Assembly: GCA_001599595.1 (NCBI GenBank)
Contig: BCHH01000005.1
Span: forward strand, 910,671-974,670
Source: Beverwykella pulmonaria
Taxonomy: Eukaryota; Ascomycota; Dothideomycetes; Pleosporales; Melanommataceae
DNA length: 64,000 bases
Reading direction: 5' to 3'
The notes under the pieces were generated by a model, which made no database searches, was not told where the DNA came from, and worked only from the letters and a program-made list of their open reading frames with translations. Shown here one piece after another: positions 2,784 to 64,000 of this stretch. The first letter of the stretch is position 1. The number at the start of each line of letters is the position of its first letter. The translations under genes were made by a program, and so were the position numbers.

Positions 2784-3412
2784 ATATAGATCATGCTATG
2801 CTCAGTCTTCCCTCTACATACATGGCGTGTGAGATCAATCAAACTAGACTTGTCTTGTTCGTTTGTTTAGTCTACACATCCACCCATTCCTCCAGATGTC
2901 CCTCTCCATCCCTCTTCTCCCCTTCTGCTACTGTTTACTCCTTCCCGACACTAATCCCTGCCTTCTCCGCCTTTCGGCAAACGCCTTGGTCAATGAATCG
3001 GCCTTTTCCCCTGCAGCTTGAGCACGAGTTACGAAGGAGCCAGGCCTGGTCTTTGCTGCCCTTGGCCTGGTTAGTGTATACGTTAGTATGTTGATGAAGG
3101 GTTGTGAAGGGGAGAGAAAGGGTTGGGATGGGCACCTACCTCTGAGCACTAGAAGTTGGAGGCAACGCTCTTGGTCATGAGTATCAGATAACGGCGTCTG
3201 AAAACTAGACCAGTATTGGAAAATACCTTACCATCCAAGGCTCTTCAAATCTGCAGAACAAAGAATGCATTAGTGTGCCTGAGTTTGCCTGCATTGCGGC
3301 AAAATATGTTAGCTATGATGGTTTGGCCTTCGAATAGTCCCACACAATCGCATACCTCACGAGAAGTGATGCAGAGGACAAAGTGTATAATATGCTGAAT
3401 GCGCCAAGCGTG
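2784..3412. other. convergent intergenic region, no gene recognised
   Basis: This lies between the 3' ends of the LtrA-like gene and the E3 ligase gene. Only short open frames without domain character are seen. It should hold the 3' UTRs of both neighbours. Confidence 0.5.
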
Positions 3413-4920
3413 TTATTGCGCTACCTCAGTCTGCTGATCCTCCTCCATCTGTATCCTCATCGCCTCTTGCTCGTAAAAGTCCGCTAAGTGTTCAGCCCCC
3501 CTCCTTCCACCAAACTGGCCATCGCCACCCTCGTCGCCCTCGGCCATATCCATCAGCCTTTGATAACAAGTCTTATTCTTCTTGTCATTGAAGTGTGCGT
3601 ATGGGTTGGAAGAGTTAAGCCAGGCGCCACAGAGATAGCAAAAGTGTGTTTTGCATTGGAAGCAGGTCATGTGGTTGCAACCGTATGCCTTTTGGCATGG
3701 AACGGAACATTCGGGGCAGGGCGAAGTGAATTTGAGGATGTAGTTCAGGGAGGCTTGGTCGTCTTCGGTTAGCTCCGAGGGTTGTCGTGACTGGCAGGCG
3801 ATGAAGTCGCCACTGTAGGTGTCAGCAATGTCAGTAATTTGCATAGGGTGGGGCTCACGTACTGCCACGAAGCCAGGCATGTTCGACAAAATGCGAGGTT
3901 GCAATCCTCGCAGATGACCAAACGATCCATACCTTTACGACCCACGGGCCTTTTCTCTATACCAGGACCAGGCTCGTCTCCATTATTTGGTACCTCGACG
4001 GCCTCCTCTTCTTCCGAATCAGATTCATCCATCTGACTGACGTCCGTAATCTTTGGATATTTCTCCGTCCGCATAGCACCCTGACACCACGACCTTGGAC
4101 AAAAGGCAATGCTTTTATCCGCCTCAATCTTCTTTTTCCTTTTCAACTCCGCGAATCGTTGGACCGTTTCCAGCGCCAACGGAATCTGCAGCAGCTCCTT
4201 GGGCGAAAGTATACGACCCTTCTTCCGGCGATCCAAAGCTGCGTTGCCGGTCTTTCCGCAGTCAGGCGACAGACACTTGACGTTGTCCACGTCGCCCTCC
4301 GTAATGCAGTTATTGTAGAAATCCTGCAAGCAACTTTGGCAAAAGACGTGACTGCAGCGTTCTAGCCGGTAACACACACCACCTTTCTTTGGCTCCAAAC
4401 AGACGCCACAATCGAAGGTCTCGTTGTCGAAGGTCTCGCGCTTCATGGTCCGGTTCAGGTCTAGCATGGCAGTCTTGAGCGGTAGAGGGAGCTTCACAGG
4501 CCCCTCTGGGTTATCTGCTAAGCCGAATGCCGTCTCGGCAGCCTCTTGAAGTTGGCTAATGTAAGCGAACAGCATTGGCATATCTCCATATTCTTCCCAC
4601 AGAGATTTTCCGTCCCCTGCCAGCTTCTCCAGCACAGCATCCGGGAGCCATGGCGGCGTGGTCGTCAGCTTGAGACTAGGCGGGCACTCCTGCGGATAGC
4701 CTTGGGGGAGGGTAATTTCGAGATGGAGGGGAGGAAGGTAAGAGAGCCGGTGGATGGCCTGCTCGGGGTCGAAGGCGACAGGAAGGGGCTTTATCGGGGC
4801 CACGTTCAAATCAATGTGTGCGGAAAGTGGATCGTTCAAGTGGAGGGTAAGCTCTGGATAGATGGACCGAAGCGTGTTCAGTTCCTCCATGCGCTCATCT
4901 TCCAAGTCATTGTCGGCCAT
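3413..4920 (-). CDS. RWD-RBR type E3 ubiquitin ligase, Itt1/RNF14-like
   Basis: Ring-between-ring E3 that takes ubiquitin from an E2 onto a RING2 cysteine and then transfers it to substrates. Two exons (4920-3863 and 3812-3413, a 50-bp intron) give 485 aa. An RWD domain fills about residues 10-140. RING1 starts with CGVCLEPKKGGVCY near residue 167 and has a C-H-C-C pattern. A cysteine-rich IBR region (CPRSWCQGAM, CEDCNLAFCRTC) covers roughly 270-350. RING2 reads CPECSVPC then GCNHMTC; by analogy with parkin the Cys of GCNHM, about residue 398, is the catalytic one. Domain order matches yeast Itt1 and human RNF14, implicated in translation-related control. The C-terminal tail is acidic and Gln-rich. 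Splicing GTACGT...CTACAG restores the frame exactly. Confidence 0.9.
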
Positions 4921-43864: not shown

Positions 43865-45454
43865 TCATAGCGGAATATCCCACTCACCCTCCGTCCTCGA
43901 CCCCGCCAAAGAACTTAGCCCCCGCTTCACAAACTGCCCGTACCCCTTCTCCCCCAACAACCCTCCATTTTCCTTATCCCACACCACCTTTCCCCTCAAT
44001 AACGTATACCTCGGCCACTGCTTGATGAGCCTCCCCTCGAATGGCGTGTAATCTACATCATGATGCAGCATCTCGTTCTTCAGCTCATACTCCTTCATCT
44101 TGCCCGGCGGATACCAAATATTGATATCCGCGTCGCTTTCGCCTGCGATGATGCCACCCTTTCGCGGCCAAAGCCCATAGAGTTTCGCAGGGTTAGAAGA
44201 AGTGACCTCGACGAATTTCCTAAGATCGAGACGGCCTGCGCCGAGGGTGAGCGCGAGACGTGTTTCAATGCCGGGACAGCCGTTGGGGATATATTTGAAG
44301 TGGCCAACTGGATACTCATCGCTGATGCATGTTTTCTTCCCAGTGACATTGTCGTCATATCTGAACGGGCAGTGATCTGATGACAGGATAGTGAATGTGC
44401 CGTTGGCGAGCCCGTCCCAAATGGAGTCGCAATCGGCCTCTGATTCTCGGGGCGGCGGAGAACAGACACATTTCGCACCTTCGAAGCCGGGCTGGTCGAG
44501 GTCTTTTTTCGTGAGGAAGAGGTATTGCGGACATGTTTCTGCGTAGATGGGGAGGCCGCGGTCTTGGGCCTGCTTGATATGTGCTGCGGCGGCTGGGGTG
44601 GATACATGGACTATCAAAATCGGGGTGTCGATGAATTCTGAGAGGCTGATCGCGCGATAGGTGCCTTCTATTTCCGCCATAGGTGGGTGGCTTGTTCCGT
44701 GGTATTTTGGCGCAAAGAGTTTCCGCTTCTCGAGTTGGGCGGTCATCCAGTCGATTACTTGGCCGTTTTCTGCGTGCACCATGGTTGTGATCTTTTGCTT
44801 TCGGGCTTCGAGGAGCACGTCGAGGATTTGGCCGTCGTGTAGTTGCAGTGCTTCGTATGTCATGTATATTTTCAGTGACGAGATGCCTTCTTCGCGGAGA
44901 GTCTTGAATTCAGAGAGTGCATTAGCGGATGGGTTGCCGACGAGGAGGTGGAATGAGTAGTCTGTGTAGCAGGTGTCCTTTGCCTTTGTGTGAGTTGCGC
45001 GGAGCGTGTCGAGTAGTGTATCTTCAGATTTCTTTTGGGGTGCAAATGTCACCATTGTTGTCGTTCCACCACATATGGCTGATCGGCTCCCTGGAACTTA
45101 TTTTAGCAAATACAGATTCAGAAAAGTAACTCAACGCCCACATACCAGTCTCATAGTTGTCTGCCGTTGAGCCCTTCCCAAACAATGGCGGTTCATCAAG
45201 ATGGACATGTGCATCTATGCCTCCTGGCTACACAAAGTCAGCTATTGCTCTGAACATAGGCGTTGGTGTTAAGAGCCCACCATAACATAACCACCCTCAG
45301 CATCAATGATCTTCGTGGCCTTCGCATCCTCTAACCGTCCCCGAGAAACAACCTCCACAATCTTCTCATCTTTAATCGCAATATCAAGTTCCCCAATCTC
45401 CGTATCCGTCACCACGATTCCATTCAGGATGATGATGTCATATATGCTCGCCAT
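43865..45454 (-). CDS. dihydropyrimidinase / hydantoinase (PYD2-like)
   Basis: Cyclic amidohydrolase opening dihydrouracil, dihydrothymine or hydantoins to N-carbamoyl amino acids. Exons 45454-45281, 45227-45146 and 45090-43865 give 493 aa. Metal-site residues are in place: GGIDAHVHL (His 65 and 67), the carboxylated lysine in SLKIYMTYEA (~159), TTMVHAENG, ILIVHVST and the Asp in SSDHCPF. The two splices rebuild the family blocks GGYVMPGGIDAHVHL and DNYETGSRSAICGGTTTMV. Substrate-loop and C-terminal features are typical of the eukaryotic/bacterial D-hydantoinase branch. It is divergent from the carbamoyl-amidase gene at 45797 with a 342-bp gap, which supports consecutive reactions. Confidence 0.92.
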
Positions 45455-45796: not shown

Positions 45797-47139
45797 ATGT
45801 CGCCCACCCTGAGAATCAACGCCGAACGTCTCCACTCCACTCTCCAGTCCACCTGCACGCAATGGGGCGCTCTATCCGCACCCTCGACAGGAATGTGTCG
45901 CTTGACGCTCAGCCAGGAGGACAAGGAGGCGAGAGATTGGCTTGTCGGAGAGTGTAAAGCGCTGGGATGTGAAGTCAAGATCGATCAAATGGGCAACATC
46001 TTTGCGATTCGGCCGGGGGTCGCGAGGGATAGGAAGCCCATTGGTATGGGGAGTCATTTGGATACGCAGCCTGCTGGTACGTCGGGTATATGGTGAATGG
46101 AGCCGTATTGGAGGACGGATGACTAACGTACGCAGGAGGCAGGTACGACGGCATCCTCGGCATCCAAGCCGCCCTCGAAGTCCTCCGCACGCTGCACGAG
46201 AACAACATCGAAACATGCTGTCCGATCGCTTTGATAGATTGGACAAACGAAGAAGGTGCGAGGTTCCCGGGTGCTATGATGGCATCTGGCGTCTGGAGTA
46301 CCAAAAGCTCCACGCCCTTAGACGCGTGCTGGGCGACGCAGGACAAGGAGGGAACACTTATGAAGACCGCACTCCAAGAGATTGGATATCTGGGAGACAC
46401 GCCCTGCGACTACCAAGAGAATGGGCTGGAATGCCACTTCGAGCTGCACATCGAGCAGGGCCCGCTCCTCGAGCGCGAGAATAAGAGCGTGGGCGTTGTG
46501 ACATCTGTACAGGGCATGAAGTGGTACGCGATACGCGTCACGGGCGTGGAGGGGCACTCGGGAACGACACCGATGCCGGGCCGAGCGGATGCATTGGTTA
46601 CTGCCTCCCGCTTGATCACAGCAGTTCGAGACATAGCGCTGACGACGGGTCTTGGCTTTGCAACTGTGGGGGTGATTCATAGCGACACGTCGAGTCAAGC
46701 AACTATACCGGCGGGAATCGACTTTATCATCGACATTCGATGCTCCACGGACCAGGAGGTAGATCAATTAGCGTCCGCTATTCTCAAGGCCTTCGACGCC
46801 ATCATCGGCGAGGAGAATAACGGGACTGCGTACAACATTAAGCGAACGTGGGGACTCCCAGAGTCGAAGTTCCACCCACGCTGCATCGATGCTGTGAGGA
46901 AATCTGCACTCCAAGAGGTCGGCGAAGACCAGATCATGGACATGCTTTCACGCGCTGGTCACGACAGCGCCTGGGCCTCTCGCGTGTGTCCCACAAGCAT
47001 GATCTTCGTACCGAGTAAAGACGGGATATCGCATGCCCCGAATGAGTATACGAGCCCAGAGCACTGCGCTTTAGGCGCGCAGATCTTGCTGCAATCGGTG
47101 CTGTATTATGATGAACGGGTACGGAAGGGCGAGTACTAG
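45797..47139 (+). CDS. N-carbamoyl-amino-acid amidohydrolase / beta-ureidopropionase (PYD3-like, M20 family)
   Basis: Zn-dependent hydrolase releasing CO2, ammonia and an amino acid from an N-carbamoyl amino acid, the step after dihydropyrimidinase. In budding-yeast relatives beta-alanine synthase belongs to this same family. Exons 45797-46076 and 46136-47139 give 427 aa. Metal ligands of the M20 type are visible: GSHLDTQPAGGRYDG (across the splice), DWTNEEGARF, FELHIEQGP, and the final SHAPNEYTSPE. The dimerisation lid has GVEGHSGTTPMPGRADAL. The start at 45797 gives a family-like N-terminus. N-carbamoyl-L-amino-acid hydrolase or allantoate amidohydrolase are the alternatives; the neighbour favours the pyrimidine/hydantoin role. 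Confidence 0.9.
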
Positions 47140-47174: not shown

Positions 47175-48938
47175 TTATACCATCTTCTCCAGTGGCTCAA
47201 TCTTCAACGGCGAAAACCACTTCCCCTCCTCACCCTTCCACGACTCCCAAAGCGCCTCGCACCTCTTCCAACTCCTCTCGTTTAATCTCTCATCCTCAGC
47301 CACGCTTCTTTCTACCCATCCCTCGCGTTCGTCCGCTACCATTATCGTCGCCCCTGCTCCAGACTCGTATTTGTACTCACTCCAAGGCGTCTTACCGTTT
47401 GCAATGTCGATCCACAGCTGTGCATGCTTGGTCGATATACTCTTAAGAAATTGCGTCGGGTACCGGAACTGGAACGTCTTGAAGACAAAATATACATCAA
47501 CCCAGTGGTGGGCTTGCTGGTACAGGGGATGATTCGGGAACGGGTTCCTGATATCGAAGATGTAGCGGTAGACTTTCTTGCTCGTGTGGGTGGTGAGATA
47601 CTGGGCAAGAGCGTGCGTCGGCCCATCAAAGACAATATCCCCGATCCAGCGGAATGCGGCTGTGAGAAATAGATTCTGGTCCATATTGGGCGTGATGTTG
47701 TATGCAGACAGCATGAGCGAGGCGTTTTGGGGGCCGAGTTGGGTGGTGATGGATGCGGAGAAGTTTTGGGGTGTGAGGAGGCTAATGTTGGACTGGAAAA
47801 ATGTGCCCTTTGGTGTGTTAGCTCCTAGGCTCTATAGCGAATAGGGATATTTACCTCAAAGCCAGTAGTACCAAGGACGATTTCGTCGACCCACGAACAC
47901 TGGCCCAGCAGCTCGGGAATACGGTCCCAAGTCACGTTCCCCTTTTCCTTTCCAAACCACTCGCGGTCTTCGACAAATGGGGGCATGGCACCTCCATTTG
48001 AGAGCTTCGCGCTCTCATTGACAATTTTCTGTACGTCTGATTCTCTCAGCTTCTCCAACGCAGCTTCACCTTGCTCTTCGATGCCCATAATTTCAACAAA
48101 CTTCTCATATATCTTCTCTGCTTCCACCACAGGAATCGGCGCCATACTAGGCGCCACAACACCAGACATAAGCACTACCCTTCTGAACAGCGGCCCTTCC
48201 GCAGGCGCAGGCGCAAGCATATGATAACAAATCGACATGGCTCCCGCTGACTCTCCAAACACCGTCACATTCCCCTTATCCCCTCCAAATCCACCAATGA
48301 ATTTCTTTACCCAAAGCAGCGCATTCCTCTGATCGTAGAAGCCGAAATTCCGACCCCCGTCAGGCGTGTGAAGGAATCCAAGAGCACCAAGCCGGTATTG
48401 GAGGCTTACACCGATGACGGGCTGAGAGTCAGCGAGGGATTGGGCGACTAGGAGTGCGGTACTGTGCTGAGCATCGATTTTGCCGAGGACGAAGCCGCCG
48501 CCGTGGATGTAGAGGAGGACTGGGAGGTTTGATGGGTTTGAGGGGGAGGAAGGGGATTGGAGACATGCAAGGGGGACGTTGATTTGGAGGATGAGGGAGT
48601 GGAATTCGGAGGTTAGGTGAGGGTGGATTTGGTTGGGGAAGGGTCCGCCGCCAAATATGTCATTGCCGAATGTGTGCGGAGAGGCGAAGCTGGGCTATGT
48701 TAGTTATGGTATTGTCGTAATCGTAGTTCATTGGAAATTGGGTTAGTTACCCTTCCTGTGTGAAGTCCCTACTTGTGTCTGCGAGGGTTTCGAGGAGTAT
48801 GGATTGTTTAAATCGAGCTGGGAGTGTTGCGTATGGTATTGCCCGGAATTGGACGACATTTTCTGGTGTTATGATGCCGGTCATTGGTCCCAGATCAGGG
48901 TGATTGAATGTGAAGGTTGGAGTACTTGTTTTTGCCAT
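47175..48938 (-). CDS. type B carboxylesterase
   Basis: Alpha/beta-hydrolase of the carboxylesterase/lipase type B family. Exons 48938-48751, 48689-47855 and 47807-47175 give 551 aa. The oxyanion-hole motif LYIHGGGFVLG and the nucleophile elbow FGESAGAMS are present. The first splice rebuilds FTQEGFASPHTFGND, and the second rebuilds GTTGFEGTFFQSNISLL. The catalytic His is probably in the PLYQQAHHWVD segment. No signal peptide is seen (MAKTSTPTFTFNHPD), so it is likely cytosolic, unlike secreted family members. It converges with the amidohydrolase gene (35 bp between stops). Substrate cannot be inferred; it may belong to the neighbouring metabolic cluster. Confidence 0.87.
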
Positions 48939-49845: not shown

Positions 49846-51656
49846 ATGAGTAGTGAAAAATTATCTACTGAGCATGTTGAAGTTTTGGTAGTTGGTGGTG
49901 GGCCCGTTGGTATGTAACCTCACAAATATACAGCTTCGAGCCTAACACATCATTCGCAGGTCTTATTACCGCCTACCAACTCGCGCGAAACCTCCCTTTT
50001 CCACACAAAATCAAGATCATTGAGAAACATCACAAGTCGGCCCAGGACCAATATGGCCGAGCCATCACACTCTTCCCTCGTAGTGTGGAGATGTTGGATC
50101 AACTCGGCCTTGCCGATTCCCTCGCACAACAATGCTTCGCTTGTCGGGACACTGTGAACTATGATAAAGATGGGAATGAGTGCCCAGGACGTGGATGGAG
50201 TTTCATGGAGAACATGAAGGATACGACGTGGGACTTTGCGCTGGTCTTGCGGCAGAAATACCAGGAGGAGATATTCAGAAATGCTCTCAGGAGGCACGGC
50301 GTCACACTAAACTCTCTATTTACTTTGGTCGACATCGAAATTTTAGAGAACGTGGGACCATCAGGATATAAAGTCGTGGCCACCATCGAGCATGGGATCA
50401 CGAAACTCAAGAGCGTTGTCAAGTGCAAATATCTTGTTGGTGCCGACGGTGGCCGATCGTCAGTGCGGAGAATCATGGACATTCCCTTCGACGGCTCTAC
50501 AAGTGAGGACAAGTGGGTACGGGTGGATGGCGTGATAGAGACAGACTTACCAAAGCCTCGGACGTACTGTGCCATTGAGTCTCCTACACATGGAAACGTC
50601 TTGTGGGCAGCGCTCGACCACGGAGCTACTCGCATTGGGTTCGCCTTCACTGCGGAACGACAAAAAGCATATGCAGAGTTCAACGAAGAAGCCGCCGTCA
50701 AGGAAGCCATCGCATCTGTGAAGCCCTTCAATCTCTCCTTTAAGCAAGTGGACTGGTGGACGATCTACGCTGTGGGCCAACGCATTGCTCGGTCATTCTT
50801 CGTTAAAGATTGCGTATTCCTGGCAGGCGATGCCTGCCACACACACAGTTCTGGTGCGGCTCAAGGCATGAACACAGGAATGCATGATGCGGTCAATCTG
50901 GGATGGAAACTTTCGCTCGTGCTGCAAGGCCTAGCGAAACCTGCTCTCCTCCATACGTATGAGGCTGAACGTTTGCCGAACGTCCAAAGGCTTATCAACT
51001 ACGATAAGGACATCTCCCGGCTCATGACAATGCAATTGCCAGAGTACTGGACAGGAGACCCTAACGCAGATCCTAACAAGATCCTTGGTACGGTCATGGC
51101 AGAGGCAGCGACGTTCAGCAGTGGTCTAGGCATATTCTACGAGCCGGATTCGGTCCTCAACATTTCTGCAGGCTTCAGTCTCTCTTCAATACAGCCTGGA
51201 CAGCGAGCCCCTGATGTCTCCCTGCAGAAACCCGCGACCTTTGAATCGACACGACTACAGCGTGAGACACCAAACATTGCACGCTTCTACATTGTCTTGT
51301 TTGCTGGATGTGTAGCGCGAACGAAGCCCTCAATTTCTGCGTTCTCACAATCAGTGGAAGGCATGCAGTGGTTATTTGACTCCAATTCTCCAATCTCTTG
51401 GATCTCTATATTCTCTGGCGCTGGAGGCCCGTCAGCCTACGAGACCCTCGGTGGCATGCCTTTTGGTAGAGTCTTCTACGACGAAAACCATAGCGCACAT
51501 AAAAGATATGGTGTCAGCGTAGAGAAAGGCATGGTAGTTGTGCTGCGACCAGATGGATGGATTGGCACAGCGGCAGAGCTCGGAAGTGGGGCTCCTCAAG
51601 CATTGGACAAATACTTCAAGAATTTCCTTATCCTTAGTGGAAACACTAAGCTGTAG
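49846..51656 (+). CDS. FAD-dependent aromatic-ring-type monooxygenase (phenol 2-monooxygenase-like)
   Basis: Class A flavoprotein monooxygenase using NAD(P)H and O2. Exons 49846-49909 and 49960-51656 give 586 aa. The FAD-binding GxGxxG motif VVGGGPVG sits at residues 15-22 and is completed by the splice (VGLITAYQLARN). The DG motif GADGGRSSVRR and the GD motif FLAGDACHTHSSGAAQGMNT follow. The C-terminal ~190 residues resemble the thioredoxin-like domain of phenol hydroxylases (FYIVLFAGC, VLRPDGWIG). The substrate is unknown. Its 3' end faces the O-acetylhomoserine sulfhydrylase-like gene with only ~70 bp between. FAD monooxygenases occur as tailoring enzymes in related clusters, so a cluster role is possible. 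Confidence 0.88.
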
Positions 51657-51727
51657 GGTCGTCATCAAAATACAAACCTATATTCAAACCCGAACAACGG
51701 TCATACCACTTCCACAACCTGTGTCGC

Positions 51728-53337
51728 TCAAGCACCCACAACCTCCTTCAACTTCTCCAGCCCCCCATTCACCCCATTCGGCTTCGGTGCATATAATGTC
51801 CCATCATTCCAATCTTTTCCCTTCATATCTTGCTTCCACGTAGGCGTCCAGCCCTTCGCCTCACTCAAGCCCGCCGCCTTGAACGCCTGCTCAAAATCAT
51901 GAATAATATCATCGATATGTTCTAACCCCAGCGATACCCGGATCATATCCGGCGTCACACGCCCCTTGATCTTCTCCTCGTCCGGAATCTGCTGATGTGT
52001 CGTCCGCCACGGGTGAATAATCAACGTCTTCGCATCGCCCACGTTTGCTAGATGACTGCATAGCTTCAGATTATCCACTACGGCCTCAACCTCCTTAATG
52101 TTCCCCGCCACGCCGAAGGTCAGCACGCCGCCTTGCCCCTTGGGTAGCACGCGCTGCGCGAGCTCATAGTCAGGATGGGATGGTAGACCCGGGTAGTTGA
52201 CCCAATTTACACACGGGTGCGCCTCGAGCCAGCGCGCGAAGGTTAAAGTGTTGTAGACGTGACGTTCGCCACGCAGCGCGAGCGTCTCTAGACCTTGCAA
52301 AAAGAGCCATGCGTTAAAGGGGGATAAGCAAGGCCCTAGGTCCCGCATAGCGTCCATGCGTAGTTTCGCAGAGAGTGATTTTAGGCCGTATGTTTCCCAA
52401 AAGCGCATCCCGTGGTAGCCGTCGGCGGGCTCCGTCATGCCTTACAACATCAAGTCAGTATTTTGGGATGGGGACAAAGAGAGGAAGCAGACGTACAGGG
52501 GAATTTTCCAGAGGCAGACCAATCGAAATGTCCCCCATCGATGACAATCCCGCCCATACTCGTTCCATGTCCACCTATCCACTTGGTCGCCGAATGGGTA
52601 ACGATATCGGCACCCATAGTGAGGGGTTTGGCGAGGTAGCCTCCCATGCCGAAAGTATTGTCGACGATGAGTGGTATGCCATTCTCATGACAGACAGCGG
52701 CAATCGCGGCGATATCTGGGACTGTGAATTGCGGGTTGCCGATTGTTTCTACATAGACGGCGCGTGTGTTGGCGTCTATTGCTGCGGCGATGTCGGAAGG
52801 GACGTGTCTGTTATCTAGTGTCAACGACCTCCATAATCCAATAAGTATAAGCGGCTTACCCTTCAACAAACTTGCACTGAATGTTGAACTTTTTGAAGTA
52901 TACCCTGAATTGGTTGAATGTTCCTCCGTACAGGTTCATCGTTGAAACGAAATTGTGCCCCGGCTCGCAGATCGATGTTATGGCCATGAACTGCGCGGCG
53001 TGGCCCGAGGCGGTGGCGACCGCACCCACGCCACCTTCGAGCATCGCCATGCGGGTTTCGAAGACGGCGTTGGTTGGGTTGCCCATGCGGGTGTACACAT
53101 ATCCGTCTTTGCTCCAAGCTGCCAGACGTTAGTTAGAACCGACAGCAAAGAATGGAAAAACAAAAAATTACCGAACTTGCTAGCCCCGTCCGCGGCGTCG
53201 GTAAAGTTGTACGCGCATGTTTGGTACAGAGGAAGAGCGCGGGAGCCGTTGATGGGGTCGGGTTCTTGGGCCCCGTGGAGAGCGAGGGTCTCGAATTCGG
53301 GGGCTTTGGTCACGTTGGCTAGGTGGCCAGAAACCAT
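51728..53337 (-). CDS. O-acetylhomoserine sulfhydrylase-like PLP enzyme (Met17/CysD family)
   Basis: PLP-dependent gamma-replacement enzyme: it takes O-acetylhomoserine and adds a thiol or, in some specialised homologues, a carbon nucleophile. Four exons (53337-53172, 53118-52860, 52807-52497, 52440-51728) give 482 aa. The PLP lysine lies in [16 protein letters not shown], and the cofactor loop in [10 protein letters not shown]. Other family blocks are [28 protein letters not shown] and [12 protein letters not shown]. The C-terminus is ~40 residues longer than usual ([19 protein letters not shown]). Start at 53337 gives [15 protein letters not shown], the normal opening; a 65-residue upstream extension in frame looks like leader. 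Nearby homoserine acetyltransferase and aspartokinase genes would supply its substrate. Confidence 0.92.
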
Positions 53338-54264
53338 ATTGGAGGCGTTGTGGAGGGGAGTGATTGAAGGCGAAGAAAGGAAGTCCTTGAGAGATCTAGA
53401 GAGTGGCTTTATGTTGATCAGGATCTGAAGATAGAGCAAGTAAGTGCTATTTCCTGTGAGTAGTATTAAAGTCCGCCAGTAAAGACCTATATATTCTGTA
53501 CGAACATTGGCTGCCATGGCAGTGCCATCCATATCAAGTTGCCCAACGCCCGCATAATCCTAACGCCCCGCATAATCTAAGGCCTCCTATCTCACCGCTT
53601 CCGTGCTCGGAGTCCTTAGATAATCGTAAACAACTCCTTATTTCCCCCCTGGGTTGCTTCGCATATCATGCCGAATCCTTCCTTGGTGGATACTATTGAT
53701 GACAATAGGACATCAGAATCAAATACCGAGCTCGGCAGATGTGCTTCGGCAGCCTTCTTATCATCCATCTTTGAATCAAGTGTGGATAATGCGTAGGACT
53801 AAATTTCGGTGGGGTAGAAGGGTGCATTAGGATAAGCACGTGAGATGCCGAGAAGAATGCCGAAGTGCCGCAGATAGAAATGCGCGATGCCGATAGTACA
53901 CCACAAGCATCACTGCGGATATCTGTATCAACCATGAAATCTGCAGCTGAAATTGAGTGGGCATGATCAGTGGTCAGCATGCCGCCAACGAATTTCTAAG
54001 AGTGTTGGCAACCAAGGGGAGGGTCAAGGCGATTTTGGGTTAGGAGATGAAGGACCTAGTAGTATTGTATACAATGCCCTTTGGCAGGACATCACAGAGT
54101 TATGCAATATCTTATGGTATATGGCACATAGATAGGGTTGAAATGGATCGAGTTTGAAAGAAGGCTCAAGGGCTACCGATTGTTGAGCAATTAAACAGAA
54201 TATCAACCAAAGTTATTTCATATTTATTATTATATGGTAGGTACGTTTCTGTCAATAAAAGCTA
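53338..54264. other. intergenic region, no gene recognised
   Basis: 5' flank of the sulfhydrylase-like gene and 3' flank of the nitrilase gene, with CACGTG at 53837-53842. No gene supported. Confidence 0.45.
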
Positions 54265-55497
54265 CTATTCTTTCAACAGGACATTTACCGAACCCTTCGT
54301 GTTCACCGTCAGAGAACTATGATCAACGTTAGCAGATTTCAGTTCATGGTAGGGATAACTTACAAAATATCGGGTCTGGAGTAGCTTCCAACGACGTCAA
54401 AATCCATCTGTAACCTGTTAGTCGAAGTCATAAATGTAATTCAATCTAAGGTCTCACCCTTGCCTCAACCAAATCGTCCATGTTCAACTCTGCATACACA
54501 ATCTGCTCCTTATCCCACACAGGTTCAGCTCCCTCTACGAACGTCCCCAAAGGCCCAACGACACATGAGCCTCCACGACTGAGGACAGTATCAGGTGTCC
54601 AAGGTGAGCTGTCAGGTTGTCTGTCGTGACATTCTGTCATGAAAGGCGGGTAGTCGGCTGGAAAGTCAGAGACCTTGCAGAACTGGTTCACTGAGATCAC
54701 AAAACATCGCCCTTCTTTTGCGATATGTTGCATGGAGGCGATCCAGCTTGGTAGGTCATCAGCGTTTGGGGCGAGGTAGATTCTAATGAAAGTGTTAGAG
54801 AACAGTAAGAATGGAATGGAGAAAATACAGACTCAATTCCTTGCTGGTATAAGGCTAGCCGGGCCATAGGCATGTAGTTCTCCCAACATATCAATCCTCC
54901 AACTTTCCCGATCTCGGTGTCAATCACTTTTAACCCGTCGCCAGCACCGCGACCCCATACTAGCCTTTCTGCTGCTGTTGGAATCAACTTGCGATGAGTT
55001 GAAAGCAAAGTTCCCTTTCGTCCAATCAACACTGCTGTACAGTAGAGCGTTGCTCCATCTTTTTCGATGATTCCAACAGATAGAAAGACGTTGTTCTTTT
55101 CTGCTATACCTAGAAGAGTGTTGAACTCAGGAGACGAGACGCTGATTGCCGAGTTGTAGTATTTTGCGTACCACTTCCGACCTGCATATTACGTTATAAA
55201 TCTCTCTCTTCATTGGCGAATACAAATTACCTCTCGGCTCCCGCGCACCAATGGTGGCATCAAATGCATAACGCCATGGATATGCTGATAGAAATCCCTC
55301 ACTGGAGCATGATGTCAGCTGATCGTTATTTCAACCTCGGGACAGAAAGGAAGTTTGAGAGCATACGGAAACACGACCAGGTCTGCACCAGAATGTGCAG
55401 CTTCTGTGGTAAACTTTGCAACTCTTTCTAAGCTTTTAGCTAGATCAAAGGATACTGGAGCCGCTTGTACAGCTGCGACCTTCACTGATTTCGACAT
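54265..55497 (-). CDS. nitrilase (carbon-nitrogen hydrolase superfamily, branch 1)
   Basis: Hydrolyses a nitrile to a carboxylate, or in relatives a nitrile to an amide. Six exons (55497-55367, 55301-55231, 55181-54833, 54782-54458, 54407-54364, 54316-54265) give 323 aa in frame. The Glu-Lys-Cys triad is complete: FPEGFL (Glu, rebuilt by splice 1), HRKLIPTAAERLVWG (Lys), and GGLICWENYMPMAR (Cys). The sequence around the Cys is that of true nitrilases and cyanide-hydratase-like enzymes rather than of amidases. The last exons give SYSRPDIFSLTVNTKGS and a short tail. Six exons in ~1.2 kb is intron-dense for this window. The natural substrate is unknown; clustering suggests a nitrile intermediate or detoxification. 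Confidence 0.9.
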
Positions 55498-56177
55498 TTT
55501 GATTCTGATAACCAACAAAGAAAGTCGATTGCTATTCAAATCCTGTAGCTATCCGCCGGTCAAATCAGTGTTGGCGCCAGGTAGGCTTAATCTTTGTACC
55601 TCTACTACTTGTGGCATCATGCCGTTCGGACCACAGGCTTGCCGTTCGGTCTACGGGTATGGCGACATATAGGGCTGGATTACGTGCCGGTCTAGATAGG
55701 CAATCGGCAGAGCTACATCATGCGCAAATCTCGAAAAACTCAGGCCACATTGTGATCACGTGAGAAATGCCGCGTGGAATGACAATTGCCACTGTATATG
55801 TAAGTTTGGAGATCTGTCTGATTTGAACCACAGATTCCGGGATATATTGAGTGCTAATATAGCTTTGTCACACAGCCATCTAGACCTGACACATCCAGTC
55901 TCCACTGTGTACGTTGCCCCACCCTTATCACTATACGAGATGACAGTGTTGTTGGGAGCTTACAACTTATTCTAGGGGAGCTAGTTCCAACCTTTTGAAT
56001 GCACATTGAAATCGAAGACCAACCCTGCCTGACAAAATCTAATGAAAGGCGTTAAAACTCAAATACTGTTTGAAAATCGACTCTAATATATCATACTACA
56101 AGATTCGCATTTGTAAGCATTTTTACATGGTCTCCAACATTATTGGAAATCAGGCTACGGAATATCATTTAAAAAAA
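55498..56177. promoter_or_regulatory. divergent promoter region, nitrilase and homoserine acetyltransferase
   Basis: No gene supported. A perfect palindrome TCACGTGA lies at 55756-55763, a bHLH/Cbf1-type core site. Confidence 0.45.
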
Positions 56178-57625
56178 ATGAACGTTGAGACTGAACCATC
56201 AATTCGTAAGCCTGCCCTATCGTATGTTTTGAACTACTTCTCTAATTTCATTATAGAATTGATCTCTTTGGGCGATAGCGGTAACTTTTACTCCTCGCTG
56301 GTCCAGAATCAAAAAGTCGCCCTTGTTCCATCGTTCAAGCTTGAATCTGGGATTACTCTGCGCTCAGTACCTGTGGCGTATTCGACTTGGGGCACTTTGA
56401 ATGAAAACTGCGATAACGTTCTCGTGCTCTGCCACGCACTTACTGGCAGTAGTGATGCACTGGACTGGTGGCGGCCCTTGATAGGTGTGGGCAAGGCATT
56501 AGACTACAGTCGATACTTTATCTTCTGTGGTAATGTCCTAGGATCTCCTTACGGTACAGCCTCACCTTTATCAACAAATCCAGCAACTTGTATGCCATAC
56601 GGACCCAATTTCCCAGCTACTACTATTCGAGATGATGTCAGGTGAGTAAATATCGCAGGAATTCTCTTCAAGGTCTCATAAAATTCAGAATACACAAGCT
56701 TGTACTTGACGCGCTGGGTGTTCAAAGCATTGCTGCAGTCATTGGTGGCTCCATGGGAGGAATGACTACACTGGAATGGCCCTTATGCACACTACCAGGT
56801 TATATCAAGAATATCATCCCTATTGCCACATCCGCCTACCATGGTGCTTGGGGGATCTCATGGGGCGAAACTCAACGACAAGCCATCTATACCGATTCGG
56901 CCTTCCAAAATGGATGGTATGAGCCAAGACCAGCAGGCCAGCCCCAGAAAGGCCTTGGAACAGCAAGAATGATTGCGATGCTCACGTATCGCTCACACGG
57001 ATCCTTTGAGGCTCGGTTTAGTCGTAGACCTGCAACGGGTGTTAAGACATTTGCTCCTTTACCTACTCCACCACCGTCTGACGGGGGAAGCATGTGTTCA
57101 GACCAAGAAGCTGCAGTCGAAGATACTTCGCCAACAAAATTTTCTGCTCAAACCTATTTACAATATCAGGCTGATAAGTTCCTTAAACGATTTGACGCGA
57201 ACTGCTATATCCATCTCACGAATAAGATGGATACACACGACGTAACTCACGGCAGACTCAACGACAAATTTGAGCAGCAGTCGTATCCGCCCAACGAATA
57301 TCAATTAAGCTCAGTATTGAGTACTGTTCCTCCAGGTGCTCTCGTGGTGAGCGTAGGAAGTGACGTGCTGTTCCGCCCAGAGCAACAACATGAACTAGCG
57401 AGATGTCTTCCAGGTGCTAAAATCGTTGACTTGAACTCACCAGACGGACACGATGGTTTCTTGCTGGAGTTTGAGACACTGAACAGGATTGTCAGACGGC
57501 ATTTGGAAGAACGATGTCCTTGGATTTATGAGGGGAATGCAAAGACGACTACGGATTTAGATGTGGAAAGGGAGGATGAAGTGATGAACAGTGTTTTCGG
57601 TGAAGCTGAGATCACGGAGTTTTAG
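56178..57625 (+). CDS. homoserine O-acetyltransferase (Met2-like)
   Basis: Transfers acetyl from acetyl-CoA to homoserine. The catalytic triad of this alpha/beta-hydrolase fold is visible: GGSMGGM (Ser), SVGSDVLFRPEQQ (Asp) and NSPDGHDGFLLE (His). Conserved VAYSTWGTLN, LCHALTGSSD and DDVRIHKLVLDALGV (across the splice 56642-56688) support the call. A putative first intron 56206-56256 is 51 nt with good ends (GTAAGC...TTATAG) and no stop. The product is 449 aa if it is spliced, 466 aa if retained. A charged insert (TPPPSDGGSMCSDQEAAVED) fits fungal Met2. Housekeeping Met2 is the alternative, but adjacency to the aspartokinase and sulfhydrylase-like genes suggests a dedicated paralogue. Confidence 0.9.
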
Positions 57626-58306
57626 TTTGTTCGTCTCGTCGTACTTTACCCCGTCGTACTAGATGTGAATGCCCGTTTGCTCTATGTTCTACACCCAACT
57701 GTGTGTCATTCATTCAAAATTCTAGTTTCAGTTTTCACAAAGTGAGGAATACTGCAAAAAGAATGCTTTTTGTTCTAGAGTTCATTAGGTTGGATGCGGT
57801 AATGATCACGTGCGTCATCTTGTCACATTAATCAGACACACCAGGAAAAACGCAGGCTTTATTTTCAATACGATGCGACTTTGTTCATCAAATCCAAGGA
57901 GTCATTCATAACCACTCATCTCCTTTCAGTCGGGATCGTAAATAACAGCATTTTCAATCCACACGTCGCCGTCCAAATGTTCCTACGAGCCATCTATGCG
58001 GCAATATACAACATGCCGATTGTAGTAGCGGCACTGTCCCATGCCGACCGATAACGATGCCGATGAGCACCGCGGCTGCAGCAATCTGAATCATCAAACA
58101 AAATGCGAAATTCACTCCGAATAGAGATGTCAGACATCTGACGACAATTCATGTTGATGTTCTTGCTGATACTTAGAACGAGCCTCCGAGAAGATGCTCA
58201 CTACAAAACTACATTTGTGGGAAGTGAAATCAAGAACCTTAAACGAGTGATTCTTACTTCCACAATTCCCACACCTTTTTAGAACACGTGAGAGCATATA
58301 GTTAGC
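57626..58306. promoter_or_regulatory. intergenic region upstream of the aspartokinase gene
   Basis: No gene supported. CACGTG occurs at 57807-57812 and again at 58285-58290, the latter only 17 bp before the aspartokinase ATG. Confidence 0.45.
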
Positions 58307-60260
58307 ATGCCCGAACTTCAATCGAAACCTTGGATCGTCCAGAAATACGGAGGTACATCCATTGTAAGTGACTGACATAAATTTCATCCAACATGCGCTC
58401 CGTATTCCATAACCTTCATTACATCTTATAGCGCCCTCATTCTTCATTAATTATACTTACTTTTTGTCTTTGTTTTAGGGAAAGTTGCTCAGCACTATTA
58501 CGAGTGTTATTCTCCCCGAGTATCTCCAGTCGTACAATGTCGCCATCGTGTGCTCTGCGCGCTCAGGCATCATCAAAACTCAGGGGACCACAAATCTGCT
58601 CCTTGATGCTATTCAGTTTGCAACATTGGAGAAGACAAACGATACTATAGCGCTCGAAGAAATCATTGACCGAATAAGATATGAGCACATTCAAGCTGCG
58701 AAACAAGCGATCGGCCTCAAAAATGGCGTCAATCTTCTTCGAGATGTTGACATTGCTATTAAAAAAGATTGCGAGAAAATGAGGTCCATTCTCAAAGCCA
58801 CATGGACGCTTGGAGAAATATCGGAACGAACGCAGGACAGAGTCCTTGCTGTGGGTGAAACTCTTTCGTGTCGTATTGTCGCTGGTTCATTGAGAAGTAA
58901 CGTGTGTGCTTTATCCAGATTCATATCTTTCGAGAGAAGATATGCGACGCTAACCTTAATCAAGGGCATTCCTGCTGAGGCAATCATCCTAAACGACATT
59001 GTCGAGGCTGCCTATGGTAGCGATCATCGTGAGCTATTGAGAGTGTACAAGGCCAACCCGTCTGGCTTTCTTCGCGGGCTCACTGGGGTTCTTCAGAATA
59101 AGATATTAGCGTGCGAAGGAACTGTTCCGGTCATTACAGGTAACCCTACACTATCTTATTTTTATTTCAAGCCTGAACCTAACAGCGAAGGCTTCTTTGG
59201 CTCTATGCCAAATTCTTTGATCAACAGCGTTGGTCGAGGGTATTCGGACCTCTGCGCTGCACTCTGCGCCGTTTCATTAGATGCACAAGAACTTCAGATA
59301 TGGAAAGAAGTAGATGGCATTTTTACGGCTGATCCAAGAAAAATCAAAGCAGCGAGGTTATTGCCGACAGTAACCTCAGAGGAGGCTTCAGAGCTTACCT
59401 ATTATGGCAGTGAAGTAAGTTAGCGACAACCGTTCGTAAACTTTATGCTCACATCTCTTAGGTTATTCACCCTCTTACTATCGAGCAAATCGATACCGCT
59501 GCCATTCCTTTGCGGCTGAAGAACGTCATGAACCCCCAAGGTTCTGGCACTATTATCTACCCGTCGAAATCAACGTCTCGATCCTCAGAGAACAGCTCGC
59601 CTACATCTCGGTCCCCTGAAAGTGAATATATTACAGATACTACCAAGCTCAATTTCATGACCGCAAATGGCTACTATGGCGAAGCCCAGACGAGACGAAC
59701 CCCGACAGCAGTTACAGTGAAAGAAGGAATAACAATACTGAATGTAAAGTCAAATGGAACATCGAGACCACAAACATTCCTCGCCCGAGTGGGAGAAATA
59801 TTGGAAGAACACGACATCAGCATCGATCTGATCAGCAGCAGCCAACAAATGCTCAGTTTGGCTGTCTGCTCAACGCGACCTGAAGTACTCAAAGAGGCGA
59901 CCATAGTACTTTCCAACCTGGGAACCTCGACTGCTGTGCCGCACATGTCCATCATCTCGGTCGTTGGGCACAAGATGAGGAATATGGTTGGCGTAGCTGG
60001 AGAGATATTCAACGCGCTCGCAAGTGCAAAGATAAATATTTATTTGATCAGTCAAGGGGCAAGCGAGATCAACATATCGTAAGCTACCCGGGTCAATCTA
60101 GCATGCACGCGTAATGAAAATTTCCTAACCTGTTCTTAGCTTCGTAGTAAAATCACAAGATGCGTTGTTGGCCATGCAGATGGTTCATACGAATGTAATG
60201 AGGATTCCGTTGCACTCTGAGCGGGAGAACTCATTTATAAGAGGTCCATGGTTATACTAG
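58307..60260 (+). CDS. aspartokinase (Hom3-like)
   Basis: Phosphorylates aspartate, the entry step to homoserine, threonine and methionine. Five exons (58307-58363, 58479-59139, 59191-59414, 59462-60078, 60140-60260) give 559 aa. The kinase domain opens with VQKYGGTSIGKLL, followed by VCSARS and the conserved GRGYSDLCAALCAV. IWKEVDGIFTADPR and ASELTYYGSEVIHPLT complete it. Two C-terminal ACT domains are indicated by VKEGITILNVKS and VVGHKMRNMVGVAGEIFNAL, so end-product feedback is possible. The intron 59140-59190 is 51 nt without a stop, and splicing it restores VITGFFGSMPNSL. Some kinase blocks diverge from Hom3 (CSARSGIIKTQGTT), which would fit a specialised paralogue. Confidence 0.92.
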
Positions 60261-60599
60261 GCGGTCTTTCGACAAGTGATACGTGCTGAAGGCTTTTCTC
60301 ATACGTTTTTAATGTCACGCCTTCGATATGTCTCTTTTCGTCATTGCCGGCGTCTGCAATTCATCCATCGACGTTATCAATAGACAAGTGGAGCAGAAAT
60401 GCGACTTCTAATATATGACTACTGATTAGATTTTCTATCTTGTGGATGCTTCGAGATCATTTGGTTTTCTATCCATAGCACCCTACACGGAATCATTCTG
60501 GAAGTAAGGCTGCATATGAATATGCATGTTTTCCATCTCCCATTCTGAATCCTCCTGTATCTTCGATTAGATGGCCGCCAAATATAAGATGGGCAGCAT
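60261..60599. other. intergenic region, 3' flank of the aspartokinase gene
   Basis: No gene recognised. Confidence 0.45.
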
Positions 60600-61288
60600 C
60601 GCACATCTCGAAGTGGCTCAGTGCAATGCCGATCTAACTCTGTTGAAGACTATCTTGACTCGGACGGGTTGACAGTCGGGGATTTGAGGACTTCCAGTAA
60701 TGCCAATCTAGAGATTGTAAGCAGATTAGTAAACACGTACGTCTGTATGTCTCACCTTCCAAACCAAGGTCTCGTATGTGTAGGCCTAGTTGGTGGTGCA
60801 GATATACCAGTTTTCAAGCTAAGCCATCCGATTCAGAAACTTCAGTGGAATGGTAGTATCGACCTTTTTTCTGGAATGTACAAGTATCTACATAATTCGA
60901 AGCCGACACACGTGCACTGATCATTTGGAAAGATAACTGGGATTTCTATATTGGAACTCACATTGATGGAGAATTGAATTGGAGAGGGAACAGGCATGTT
61001 ATCGTCGGCATGGAGGGTGTAACCAAGAGCGCCAAGCGTGTTGAGGTAGTTCTCAAGGCCCGAACTGACGTTCTACTAGAATGCCGTGCCATATATAAAG
61101 GTTCTTCATCGACAGGAAAGTCAGTAAAACGGAGACTCGATCACAACTCCTTCGCGGTAAGCGCTCTAGACGGTTCCGTTGATAATAGAGCTGTCGCTTT
61201 CGAGCATGAGGTAGGAAAGTGGAGAGCTGATGGGTAGTTGGCAAGCAGTAGATGCTAGTAAAGCTCCTAGCGCGAGTTGAGTCTTCAT
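60600..61288 (-). pseudogene. relic of a secreted-protein gene (DUF7907-like)
   Basis: ATG at 61288 starts a signal peptide (MKTQLALGALLASTACQLP). The family-like segment SSIINGTV, a TAG stop, then SAYREGVVIESP follows. Further down, after more stops (TGA, TAG TAG), the same strand gives GLENYLNTLGALGYTLHADD and MPVPSPIQFSINVSSNIEIP, with the usual order of this fungal secreted family. The early stops read as C-to-T changes of CAG or CGA codons. There is no splice model that removes all of them. The 3' limit is uncertain. The family call rests on pattern memory of fungal secreted proteins and is moderate. Confidence 0.5.
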
Positions 61289-63159
61289 TTTATCAATGGT
61301 AAGTGGATGCGATTTAAAATACAACATTGGGGTGGTGGGATGGATGAGATGAGCGGCGTAGGGAAAGAAGTGATGGATTGAGGCCACTGTCCAAAATAAA
61401 TAGTCGATCTACGGTTGTCTCAAAGCTATCGCCCTGGGAAGAACCATCCCCCCTTACGGATGATGCAACTACCATCTAAGTACATCCGTCTAACAACGAA
61501 TCCTGTGGTACGTAACCGACAGCATCAACGTTGCCAAAAAGCATCAAAATCGTAACTGAAGCCTTCGAAGAGATTGGAGTTGGAGTAGGTGTCAAAAAGT
61601 ATCTCGCACCGAAGTTATGTAACCTGGGCTTACTTTTACAATAAGAGCGGAACAGTTGCACACCATCAGAATACTAGCAGGAGAGTTCCGCCTTGTAACA
61701 ACTCTCACAAGGCGAAACACTGCAGAATTACCCCATACAGAACCTAAGGTTTAGCTCAAGGTCTAATCGGACGATGCAGGGACGTCACACCTGACATAGT
61801 CTTAGCCACTGATCACTCTGCACTGCTTGTCAGCCTACCAACGACTGTTTGGCATCACCTCGCTCAAAATGCACGGATATCCGACGCACAGAAGTACAAG
61901 TAACTTCAAAAGATGTCTTGGGGGAAGAGAGCTACTTGAATCGAGGTGTCGAGCCGGAACGAACGTGACAGTTTAATGAGGATCTATCTAAATGGAAGGA
62001 ACAAGCCAGACAGATATCCGTAGTACAAAGAAGACGACCCCCTTCTCACCGCCAATTCAAAGCCTTTGCATATGCGAGCCTAGTCAATTTTATTCTTTAT
62101 CGCATATCTTGGGACTAGGATATTGTAAGCAGGAGCTACTGCAGCGCTGATTCATCTATTATACTGTTCAGCTGACTCGGCTGATCGCACTTTACCAAGG
62201 ACACAACACATATACAACACACACAGCACACATCTTCATACTTTCTGAAGCCTACCACCCAGTTTACAGATATGGTACAAATAAGCAGATCCCACCCCCA
62301 CGTGGCAAGACGGTTATGTATTATACTTCCCACTGTGGGCTGAATATGGTCTTGCCTTTTATGCAACATTATGTTATGGCGGAGCAAACAATTTGCATCC
62401 TGCACCTCCTTGTGCATTGAAATCTTGAAGGACGGTCAAGGGTGATAATAATTTTCTGCCGGACACCGCCTCGGAATTGTCCATGATTGTATTAGGAATT
62501 GCCTCGATGTGTGATAGGATTTCTTGAGAAACTTGCAGCACCAACCATCGTGCTGGAATTTTCGAACGAAAACTGGAAGCCGTAGCTAAGAAGACCATAT
62601 AACGAATTCCATTTTTGCAAAACAAAAATGCTGTTCGTAGGGCTGTCTATAAGTCTTTAACAACCTCATGTGAACACTTACCTGGCTTCAGTAAATGATA
62701 ATACTTTGCCACATGTCGCATGTACGTGACTTCTCTGTTGGCGAAACCAATGCTTGCTCATGAAAGTTGTGCGGGGATAGAACCTTTTTGAGCTTATTTG
62801 TCCCAAATAAGCTTCACACCTAATCATGCACCTTTCCGCCTTTAGCTCCGCCCTAATGACTAACAACCTATTCGAGATATTTAAGCGCGATTACTCAGCG
62901 TCACTCAGGCATCTAGGCACCTGCTAGGCTCATATCAGCATGGTAATGATGTGTCATGCATGACTTTATCTACACTTTATGACTGGCTCCAGCGATGGAG
63001 AACAGTCGGACAGGCCTAGATTAAGAGATAATGCAACATATATATACGCAGATGGTTGAACCTATGTTGGTCTGACTAGTCCTGAGTGGAAGATAAAGAG
63101 AATCGACAGTCACCTTTGGATCTGAACCTGATTTCATATATGAATGGAGGCTATTGACC
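61289..63159. other. ~1.9 kb gene-poor region before the P450
   Basis: AT-rich, with short frames only. A CACGTG occurs at 62299-62304. The promoter of the P450 should be in the last few hundred bases. Confidence 0.45.
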
Positions 63160-64000
63160 ATGAAGTCCAAAGAATGTGCAGTAGTCTCTCTGCTCGCGGC
63201 TCTCGCGTTGTCACGCAATAATCCATCCTCGTATGGGTACATGAACATCTTTCTCAACTTTCTCAAGTTTTTCGTTGTGCAGTACTTGTTCATAACTGTT
63301 TACAATGTCTTCATATACCCTTTTTACCGTTCCCCCCTCCGCCATCTCCCAGGGCCAAAAGTACTGTGCTCTAATCACCCACCACGCAAGTTTCTGAATC
63401 TAACAACTCTCTAGGACGGTAACATCTTGTTTGGCCAAACTCTCAACTTCATGCGAGCCAAAAGTGGGCACGAACTGCCTGTAAAATTCATGCGCGAGAA
63501 TCCTACCGCACCGCTAATCCGCTATTTGCACGTTGGGAACACGGAATGGGTGCTGTTGAATAGCGTGCACGCTTGTCGAGAGATGCTGCAGACGAAATGC
63601 TATCAGTTTGAAAAGCCGGAGTTCTTTCGGAGGGTGATTGGTGAGATTACGGGGATAGGGTTGGCACAGAGTGAAGGGGAGGAACATATGAGACAACGGA
63701 GACTATTGAATGGTACAGACCTGAGTCCAGCAGTTTATGGAAAAGGAGCTTAAAAATTGTGTAGGCCCGTTTTCGCTAGCAAATATTAAAAAGCTCGTCC
63801 CTGTTTTTAATGAAAAGGCGAGAGAGCTTGCGGAATCCGTTGAAGTGAGGACAAAAGAGAATCCTGGACAGTCTCTCGAAGGTAACTACAAATCACAAGT
63901 GTATTTTACGTTCGGCTCTGGCTAACAGCTTACAGTGGGTGAAATCTTCATGAAGACATTGTTAGACATAATCGGCCGCGCTAGTCTGGGCATCGAGCTG
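63160..64000 (+). CDS. cytochrome P450, N-terminal part, cut by window end
   Basis: Membrane-anchored monooxygenase using NADPH via a reductase. Exons so far: 63160-63360, 63415-63712, 63765-63881 and 63936 onward. The N-terminal hydrophobic anchor (IFLNFLKFFVVQYLFITVYN) precedes the proline hinge YPFYRSPLRHLPGPK. The B-C region EGEEHMRQRRLLNGPFSLAN holds the conserved helix-C W/HxxxR-like element that contacts haem. The last visible part is IFMKTLLDIIGRASLGIEL. The haem cysteine loop lies beyond the window. ATG at 63160 is preferred over an upstream TTG in frame. Splices GTACTG...CTCTAG and GTACAG...TGTAG keep frame. It belongs to the accessory metabolic region and could be a tailoring enzyme. 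Confidence 0.88.

Follow-up and report, generated by a model that had tools for sequence, protein, structure and literature searches.

A nitrilase, homoserine O-acetyltransferase and O-acetylhomoserine sulfhydrylase-like gene cluster of Beverwykella pulmonaria, and a possible route of cyanide assimilation in Pezizomycotina

The described systems closest to the gene cluster discussed here are found in plants, in bacteria and in the biosynthesis of fusaric acid. In plants, beta-cyanoalanine synthase, a pyridoxal phosphate (PLP) enzyme of the cysteine-synthase fold, is paired with NIT4, which in Arabidopsis is a beta-cyanoalanine nitrilase/hydratase. In bacteria, the O-acetylhomoserine (OAH) sulfhydrylase of Bacillus stearothermophilus is reported to form gamma-cyano-alpha-aminobutyrate (Omura 2003, as cited in PMC9317851), and nit1C is outlined in PMC6368324 as a cluster for cyanide assimilation centred on a nitrilase (NitC). 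The fusaric acid (FUB) cluster, with its content as given in an earlier, sequence-only reading of the present DNA, carries an aspartokinase (FUB3), a homoserine O-acetyltransferase (HAT; FUB5) and a PLP enzyme that uses OAH (FUB7). Here we analyze a cluster (49846-65075) in a stretch of 64,000 nucleotides (the window; C5:910671-974670, on contig BCHH01000005.1) of the ascomycete Beverwykella pulmonaria, whose genome comprises 45.6 Mb in 31 contigs. It contains a flavin adenine dinucleotide (FAD) monooxygenase, an OAH-sulfhydrylase-like PLP enzyme, a nitrilase, a HAT, an aspartokinase and a cytochrome P450.

The cluster resembles the plant pair in that a PLP enzyme would attach cyanide to the backbone of an amino acid and a nitrilase of the NIT4 type would act next, but its PLP enzyme is of the OAH sulfhydrylase family, the acceptor would have four carbons and supply genes of its own, and the genes are clustered. 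With the bacterial gamma-cyano-alpha-aminobutyrate synthase it shares the enzyme family and the proposed reaction; Table 1 of PMC13257105 gives that activity for bacteria alone, whereas here it is predicted for a clade of fungal paralogues whose genes are linked with HAT and nitrilase. Like nit1C, it would be a cyanide cluster with a nitrilase at its centre, but among the genes named in PMC6368324 (nitA-nitH) there is no OAH enzyme or HAT. The fusaric acid cluster has in common with it that extra copies of aspartokinase and HAT accompany a PLP enzyme acting on OAH; it differs in that no match to a polyketide synthase (FUB1) is listed near the present cluster, the PLP enzyme is of another lineage, and a nitrilase is present instead.

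The six genes had been placed within about 14 kb by the sequence-only reading, and gene models and domain scans bear out their presence: all have open models, in frame and with GT-AG introns that were picked by eye. At the core lie the OAH-sulfhydrylase-like PLP enzyme (51728-53337, minus strand; 482 amino acids, four exons; PF01053, TIGR01326), the predicted NIT4-type nitrilase (54265-55497, minus strand; 323 amino acids, six exons; PF00795) and the HAT (56178-57625, plus strand; 449 amino acids, three exons; PF00561 and MetX models), and the expected catalytic motifs were found in all three. Against the MetX models of NCBIfam the HAT scores 346 for NF001209 (cut-off 331) and 405.9 for TIGR01392 (cut-off 500). 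The start codons of the divergent nitrilase and HAT genes are separated by 680 bp (55498-56177), and from this layout alone a shared promoter is possible. An aspartokinase with an ACT domain (58307-60260, plus strand; 538 amino acids, six exons; AA_kinase and ACT) follows the HAT. The closest listed relatives of both the HAT (77%) and the nitrilase (87%) belong to Melanomma pulvis-pyrius.

The linkage of three of these genes recurs in further fungi. For each match the protein database reports the longest contig but no gene neighborhood, and linkage was scored as an identical longest contig (in bases) in the same fungus, using the 120 matches listed for each of the HAT (4016), the nitrilase (7563) and the PLP enzyme (7999), with PLP matches 36-120 left out of the contig comparison. 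The resulting counts are lower bounds, since proteins in the database are merged into clusters at 90% identity. The nitrilase, an oddity in the sequence-only reading, proved to be the gene most often tied to HAT: 34 of the 120 listed HAT matches share their longest contig with a nitrilase of the same fungus. Locus numbers with the same prefix could be compared in four genomes; HAT and nitrilase are adjacent in three of them (Fonsecaea multimorphosa, AYO22_03431/03432; Pycnora, M1827_002181/002182; Thermoascus, VTN02DRAFT_847/848) and seven apart in the fourth (Hypoxylon CI-4A, 122913/122906). Among the first 35 PLP matches listed, five share a contig with HAT and five with a nitrilase, seven in all and three with both. 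These three, in which all genes lie on a single contig (Dendryphion, Lepidopterella with 20,183 bases, and Parahypoxylon), are all among the 34, and close protein numbers in Daldinia EC12 (HAT 312762, PLP 312766) add an eighth PLP case. The linkage of HAT, nitrilase and PLP enzyme is well supported, and the three genes look like a conserved module of the Pezizomycotina that recurs in several classes.

Two further observations concern linkage. In Paraphoma chrysanthemicola two HAT (P0008/P0011) and two nitrilase (P0136/P0140) matches pair on two contigs, which reflects either two strains or a duplicated pair. In a Chloroflexi metagenome-assembled genome (L084, 1730-4363) an OAH sulfhydrylase-like gene (49% over 419 amino acids) is divergent from a related nitrilase at a distance of 478 bases, a lone case that could be due to chance.

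The sequence-only reading had named an objection, namely that the aspartokinase, HAT and PLP genes might simply be the housekeeping copies. This objection fails, as second copies of all three were found elsewhere in the genome. A second aspartokinase, retrieved with an earlier model that read through two introns as the query, lies at C11:166332-167675 (37% over 565 aligned positions to the window copy), a second HAT at C12:185097-186609 (56% over 124 and 38% over 389 positions) and a second OAH sulfhydrylase at C21:141104-142363 (53-68% by stretch to the window PLP enzyme). The clustered genes are thus extra copies, i.e., paralogues. In a HAT tree of 36 rows, 28 cluster-type proteins from Pezizomycotina split from the C12 copy of B. 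pulmonaria and seven basidiomycete proteins (support 100/99), although the placement of C12, a long row, is unsure. The genome also contains a further nitrilase-family gene (L022, C4:2747570-2748328; matching the nitrilase of the cluster at 31% over 254 positions), for which activity on cyanide is conceivable.

The PLP enzyme belongs to the OAH/O-acetylserine sulfhydrylase family, scoring 592.7 bits against TIGR01326 (cut-off 495.1), and retains the PLP lysine and YxR motifs (SATKW and YTRMGNPT). A tree was built from 24 chosen database rows and two proteins of B. pulmonaria (26 in all); there it falls in a clade of 15 proteins (support 100/100, branch length 0.62) apart from the 11 other rows, and all 15 are from Pezizomycotina. 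The C21 enzyme groups with those of Capronia and Aureobasidium, near OAH sulfhydrylases of bacteria and basidiomycetes. A separation from the other copy in the genome, which the sequence-only reading had proposed to examine by phylogeny, is found for the PLP enzyme and, with the reservation on C12, for the HAT. Twelve nearly fixed sites distinguish the 15 clade members from 87 other OAH sulfhydrylase rows, and three of them (H44D, L48K and L51W in the numbering of the C21 enzyme) lie just ahead of the YxR motif, in a segment that presumably borders the active site, judging from structures of the family. In the database, members of the clade carry the names of methionine and cysteine enzymes. 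One PLP match, P0251 of Parahypoxylon ruwenzoriense, is annotated within a protein of 722 amino acids with a DSBA-like domain (residues 628-697); two gene models may have been fused here, which would hint at a neighbor of the DSBA type, and the case is uninformative for the mechanism.

FUB7, which stands outside the tree, was compared by score. As it reaches 731 bits against the C21 enzyme and 509 against the window PLP enzyme, FUB7 seems to have branched from the C21-type lineage, to which the window enzyme does not appear to belong, and a FUB7-type identity of the latter was rejected. The precedent of fusaric acid therefore holds for the logic of supply, with its duplicate aspartokinase and HAT, and not for the key enzyme. 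Of the sequence-only reading, a real cluster of paralogous genes for supply and use of OAH, with second copies elsewhere, is supported, and an enzyme of the FUB7 type is not.

The best solved relative of the nitrilase in the Protein Data Bank (PDB) listing is Arabidopsis NIT4 (6i00, 300.8 bits; the next reaches 155.5), and the window enzyme is probably of the plant NIT4 type. The proposed catalytic triad, E45-K132-C166, is present; in 121 aligned rows its residues are kept in 114 (E45), 119 (K132) and 118 (C166), the remainder being gaps except for one G and one Q. R64, found in 112 of the 121 rows, aligns with an Arg of NIT4 and may occupy the site of His80 in CrNIT1, going by NIT1 numbering and the NIT4 alignment. 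Plant NIT4s are described as having a conserved Arg at the site of this His80 (PMC6214922). Two purified fungal nitrilases of the plant type are reported to be most active on beta-cyanoalanine and to accept aryl-aliphatic nitriles as well, and one of them is credited with more than 500 homologs above 50% identity in Ascomycota, distributed over Dothideo-, Eurotio-, Leotio- and Sordariomycetes (PMC7503981).

From the observed gene content, catalytic motifs, paralogy and contig co-occurrence (HAT with nitrilase, PLP enzyme with both) we infer a nucleophile, a product and a physiological role. The aspartokinase would open the route from aspartate to homoserine and so provide precursor, as its counterpart does for fusaric acid, and the HAT, judging from its family, would make OAH. 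The PLP enzyme, a predicted gamma-cyano-alpha-aminobutyrate synthase, would then replace the gamma-acetoxy group of OAH. As a nitrilase neighbors the PLP enzyme, the product of the latter is probably a nitrile, which would make cyanide, the simplest nucleophile that gives a nitrile, the most likely one and gamma-cyano-alpha-aminobutyrate the product. The NIT4-type nitrilase may convert this compound to glutamate and/or glutamine, with detoxification of cyanide and recovery of nitrogen as the net effect. We put the likelihood that the cluster detoxifies cyanide along this route at somewhat below an even chance. The wider proposal, of a so far undescribed assimilation of cyanide across the Pezizomycotina through OAH and gamma-cyano-alpha-aminobutyrate to glutamate/glutamine, by a PLP-HAT-nitrilase cluster with its own aspartokinase supply in at least this genome, is made a little more tentatively still. 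No report of the fungal PLP-HAT-nitrilase linkage was found among the titles and abstract openings searched, mostly outside subscription journals, which is weak evidence of novelty.

The core is flanked by two oxidative enzymes, which are candidate members of the module. The FAD monooxygenase (49846-51656, plus strand) is of the phenol-hydroxylase class, as its domain scan shows (PF01494 and PF07976); LolF of the loline cluster, a precedent in the sequence-only reading, is an FMO-type enzyme. The cytochrome P450 (568 amino acids, five exons; PF00067) extends on the plus strand from 63160 to the window-equivalent position 65075, with its 3′ end 1.1 kb beyond the window in the next stretch (L009), and lies 2.9 kb from the aspartokinase. 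The sequence-only reading had seen no polyketide synthase in the window and had proposed to look for one, and for a regulator, past position 64000. Neither a ketosynthase nor a condensation domain is among the matches listed for the window or for the 10 kb that follow it (these lists are lower bounds, and the core-enzyme search covered these two domains, not adenylation, terpene or other core enzymes). The nearest listed ketosynthase match, a weak one of 55.6 bits, is 18 kb left of the window (C5:892404-892625), and condensation domains are listed at 156-175 kb and 2.05-2.07 Mb of C5. The window, L009, L011 and L012 show no Zn2Cys6 pattern in uninterrupted form, though an intron within the motif would hide one, and a crude hydropathy screen for transporters gave three short frames (minus strand at 60039 of the window; plus strand at 2493 and 7445 of L009). 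To the right of the cluster, about 15 kb (C5:984611-999551; L010 41-10000 and L011 1-4981) reads N, which hides the right border of the region. Of the marks of the FUB cluster, neither a polyketide synthase, among the listed matches and up to the N stretch beyond L009, nor a FUB7-type PLP enzyme was found.

Other frames lie close by. Just upstream of the cluster are a hydantoinase/dihydropyrimidinase-like frame (43865-45097, minus strand), an M20 frame resembling N-carbamoyl-amino-acid/allantoate amidohydrolases (46123-47139, plus strand) and a carboxylesterase frame (47825-48694, minus strand), which are possibly a separate group for ureide/hydantoin catabolism. Beyond the P450 and outside the window, L009 contains an S41/CPAF-like peptidase frame (2815-3924, minus strand; PF23658, PF03572).

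These flanking enzymes bear on the interpretation favored by the sequence-only reading, that of a specialized-metabolite pathway. In it, OAH would be coupled by the PLP enzyme to a different nucleophile (C, N or S), the product would be modified by the P450 and the FAD monooxygenase, and a nitrile intermediate would be hydrolyzed by the nitrilase. That both oxidative enzymes adjoin the core, that the supply by aspartokinase and HAT parallels FUB3/FUB5, and that a new substrate is plausible for the PLP enzyme because of its fixed changes are all consistent with such a pathway. However, in our judgement the core recurs across several classes more widely than is usual for one metabolite, and a conserved metabolic module therefore fits better than a metabolite of a single lineage; in addition, ketosynthase and condensation matches are missing from the lists for the region, the PLP enzyme is outside the FUB7 lineage, and the P450 stands off from the aspartokinase. 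We consider this pathway unlikely. A duplicated Met17 branch, in which aspartokinase, HAT and OAH sulfhydrylase form a second supply of homocysteine/methionine and the nitrilase is a chance neighbor, would agree with the score of the PLP enzyme above the TIGR01326 cut-off, but it is difficult to reconcile with the contig sharing of nitrilase and HAT in 34 fungal matches, their adjacent numbers in three of four genomes, or the long, fully supported branch of the PLP clade with its fixed changes, and we hold it to be improbable. The nitrilase might also be the working enzyme of a unit that detoxifies plant nitriles or plant beta-cyanoalanine, with the OAH genes feeding an acceptor for another released fragment. 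Many carriers belong to plant-associated genera, and the substrates reported for the two tested fungal enzymes would suit such a role, yet HAT and an OAH-using enzyme as recurrent partners are not accounted for by this alone; we hold this explanation to be slightly less probable again.

Assimilation of cyanide through OAH has to contend with several points of its own. Only seven of the first 35 listed PLP matches are on a contig with HAT or nitrilase, and 86 of 120 HAT and 86 of 120 nitrilase matches have no partner among the matches listed, although the unpartnered ones include basidiomycetes, bacteria, metagenome pieces and collapsed 90% clusters. Pleomassaria, Trematosphaeria and Amniculicola, which are none of these and have close nitrilases, lack a HAT among the 120 listed, and a common contig of megabase size is not adjacency. 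No such link was seen in bacteria: in the 80 loci kept (of 583 relatives) around related nitrilases, a PLP match occurs in two, a HAT match in one and an aspartokinase match in none. The structural match does not separate NIT4 from NIT1, as plant enzymes of the NIT1 type are missing from the PDB listing, and the fungal nitrilases treated in PMC7503981 (NitAb and NitTv1 groups) are described there as not classifiable by residues alone. The same source gives fungi an alternative cyanide route, by cyanide hydratase (PMC7503981). The FAD monooxygenase and the P450 are not explained by a use of cyanide.

If cyanide is nevertheless taken up through OAH as proposed, many molds would have a sink specifically for cyanide, one in which the recovery of nitrogen is coupled to the aspartate pathway. 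A group of fungal plant-type nitrilases and the paralogous OAH sulfhydrylase clade would thereby gain a physiological role, and together they would be the fungal counterpart, with a four-carbon acceptor, of beta-cyanoalanine synthase and NIT4 in plants. Such a sink may be of relevance where fungi compete with plants or bacteria that release cyanide, and for bioremediation.

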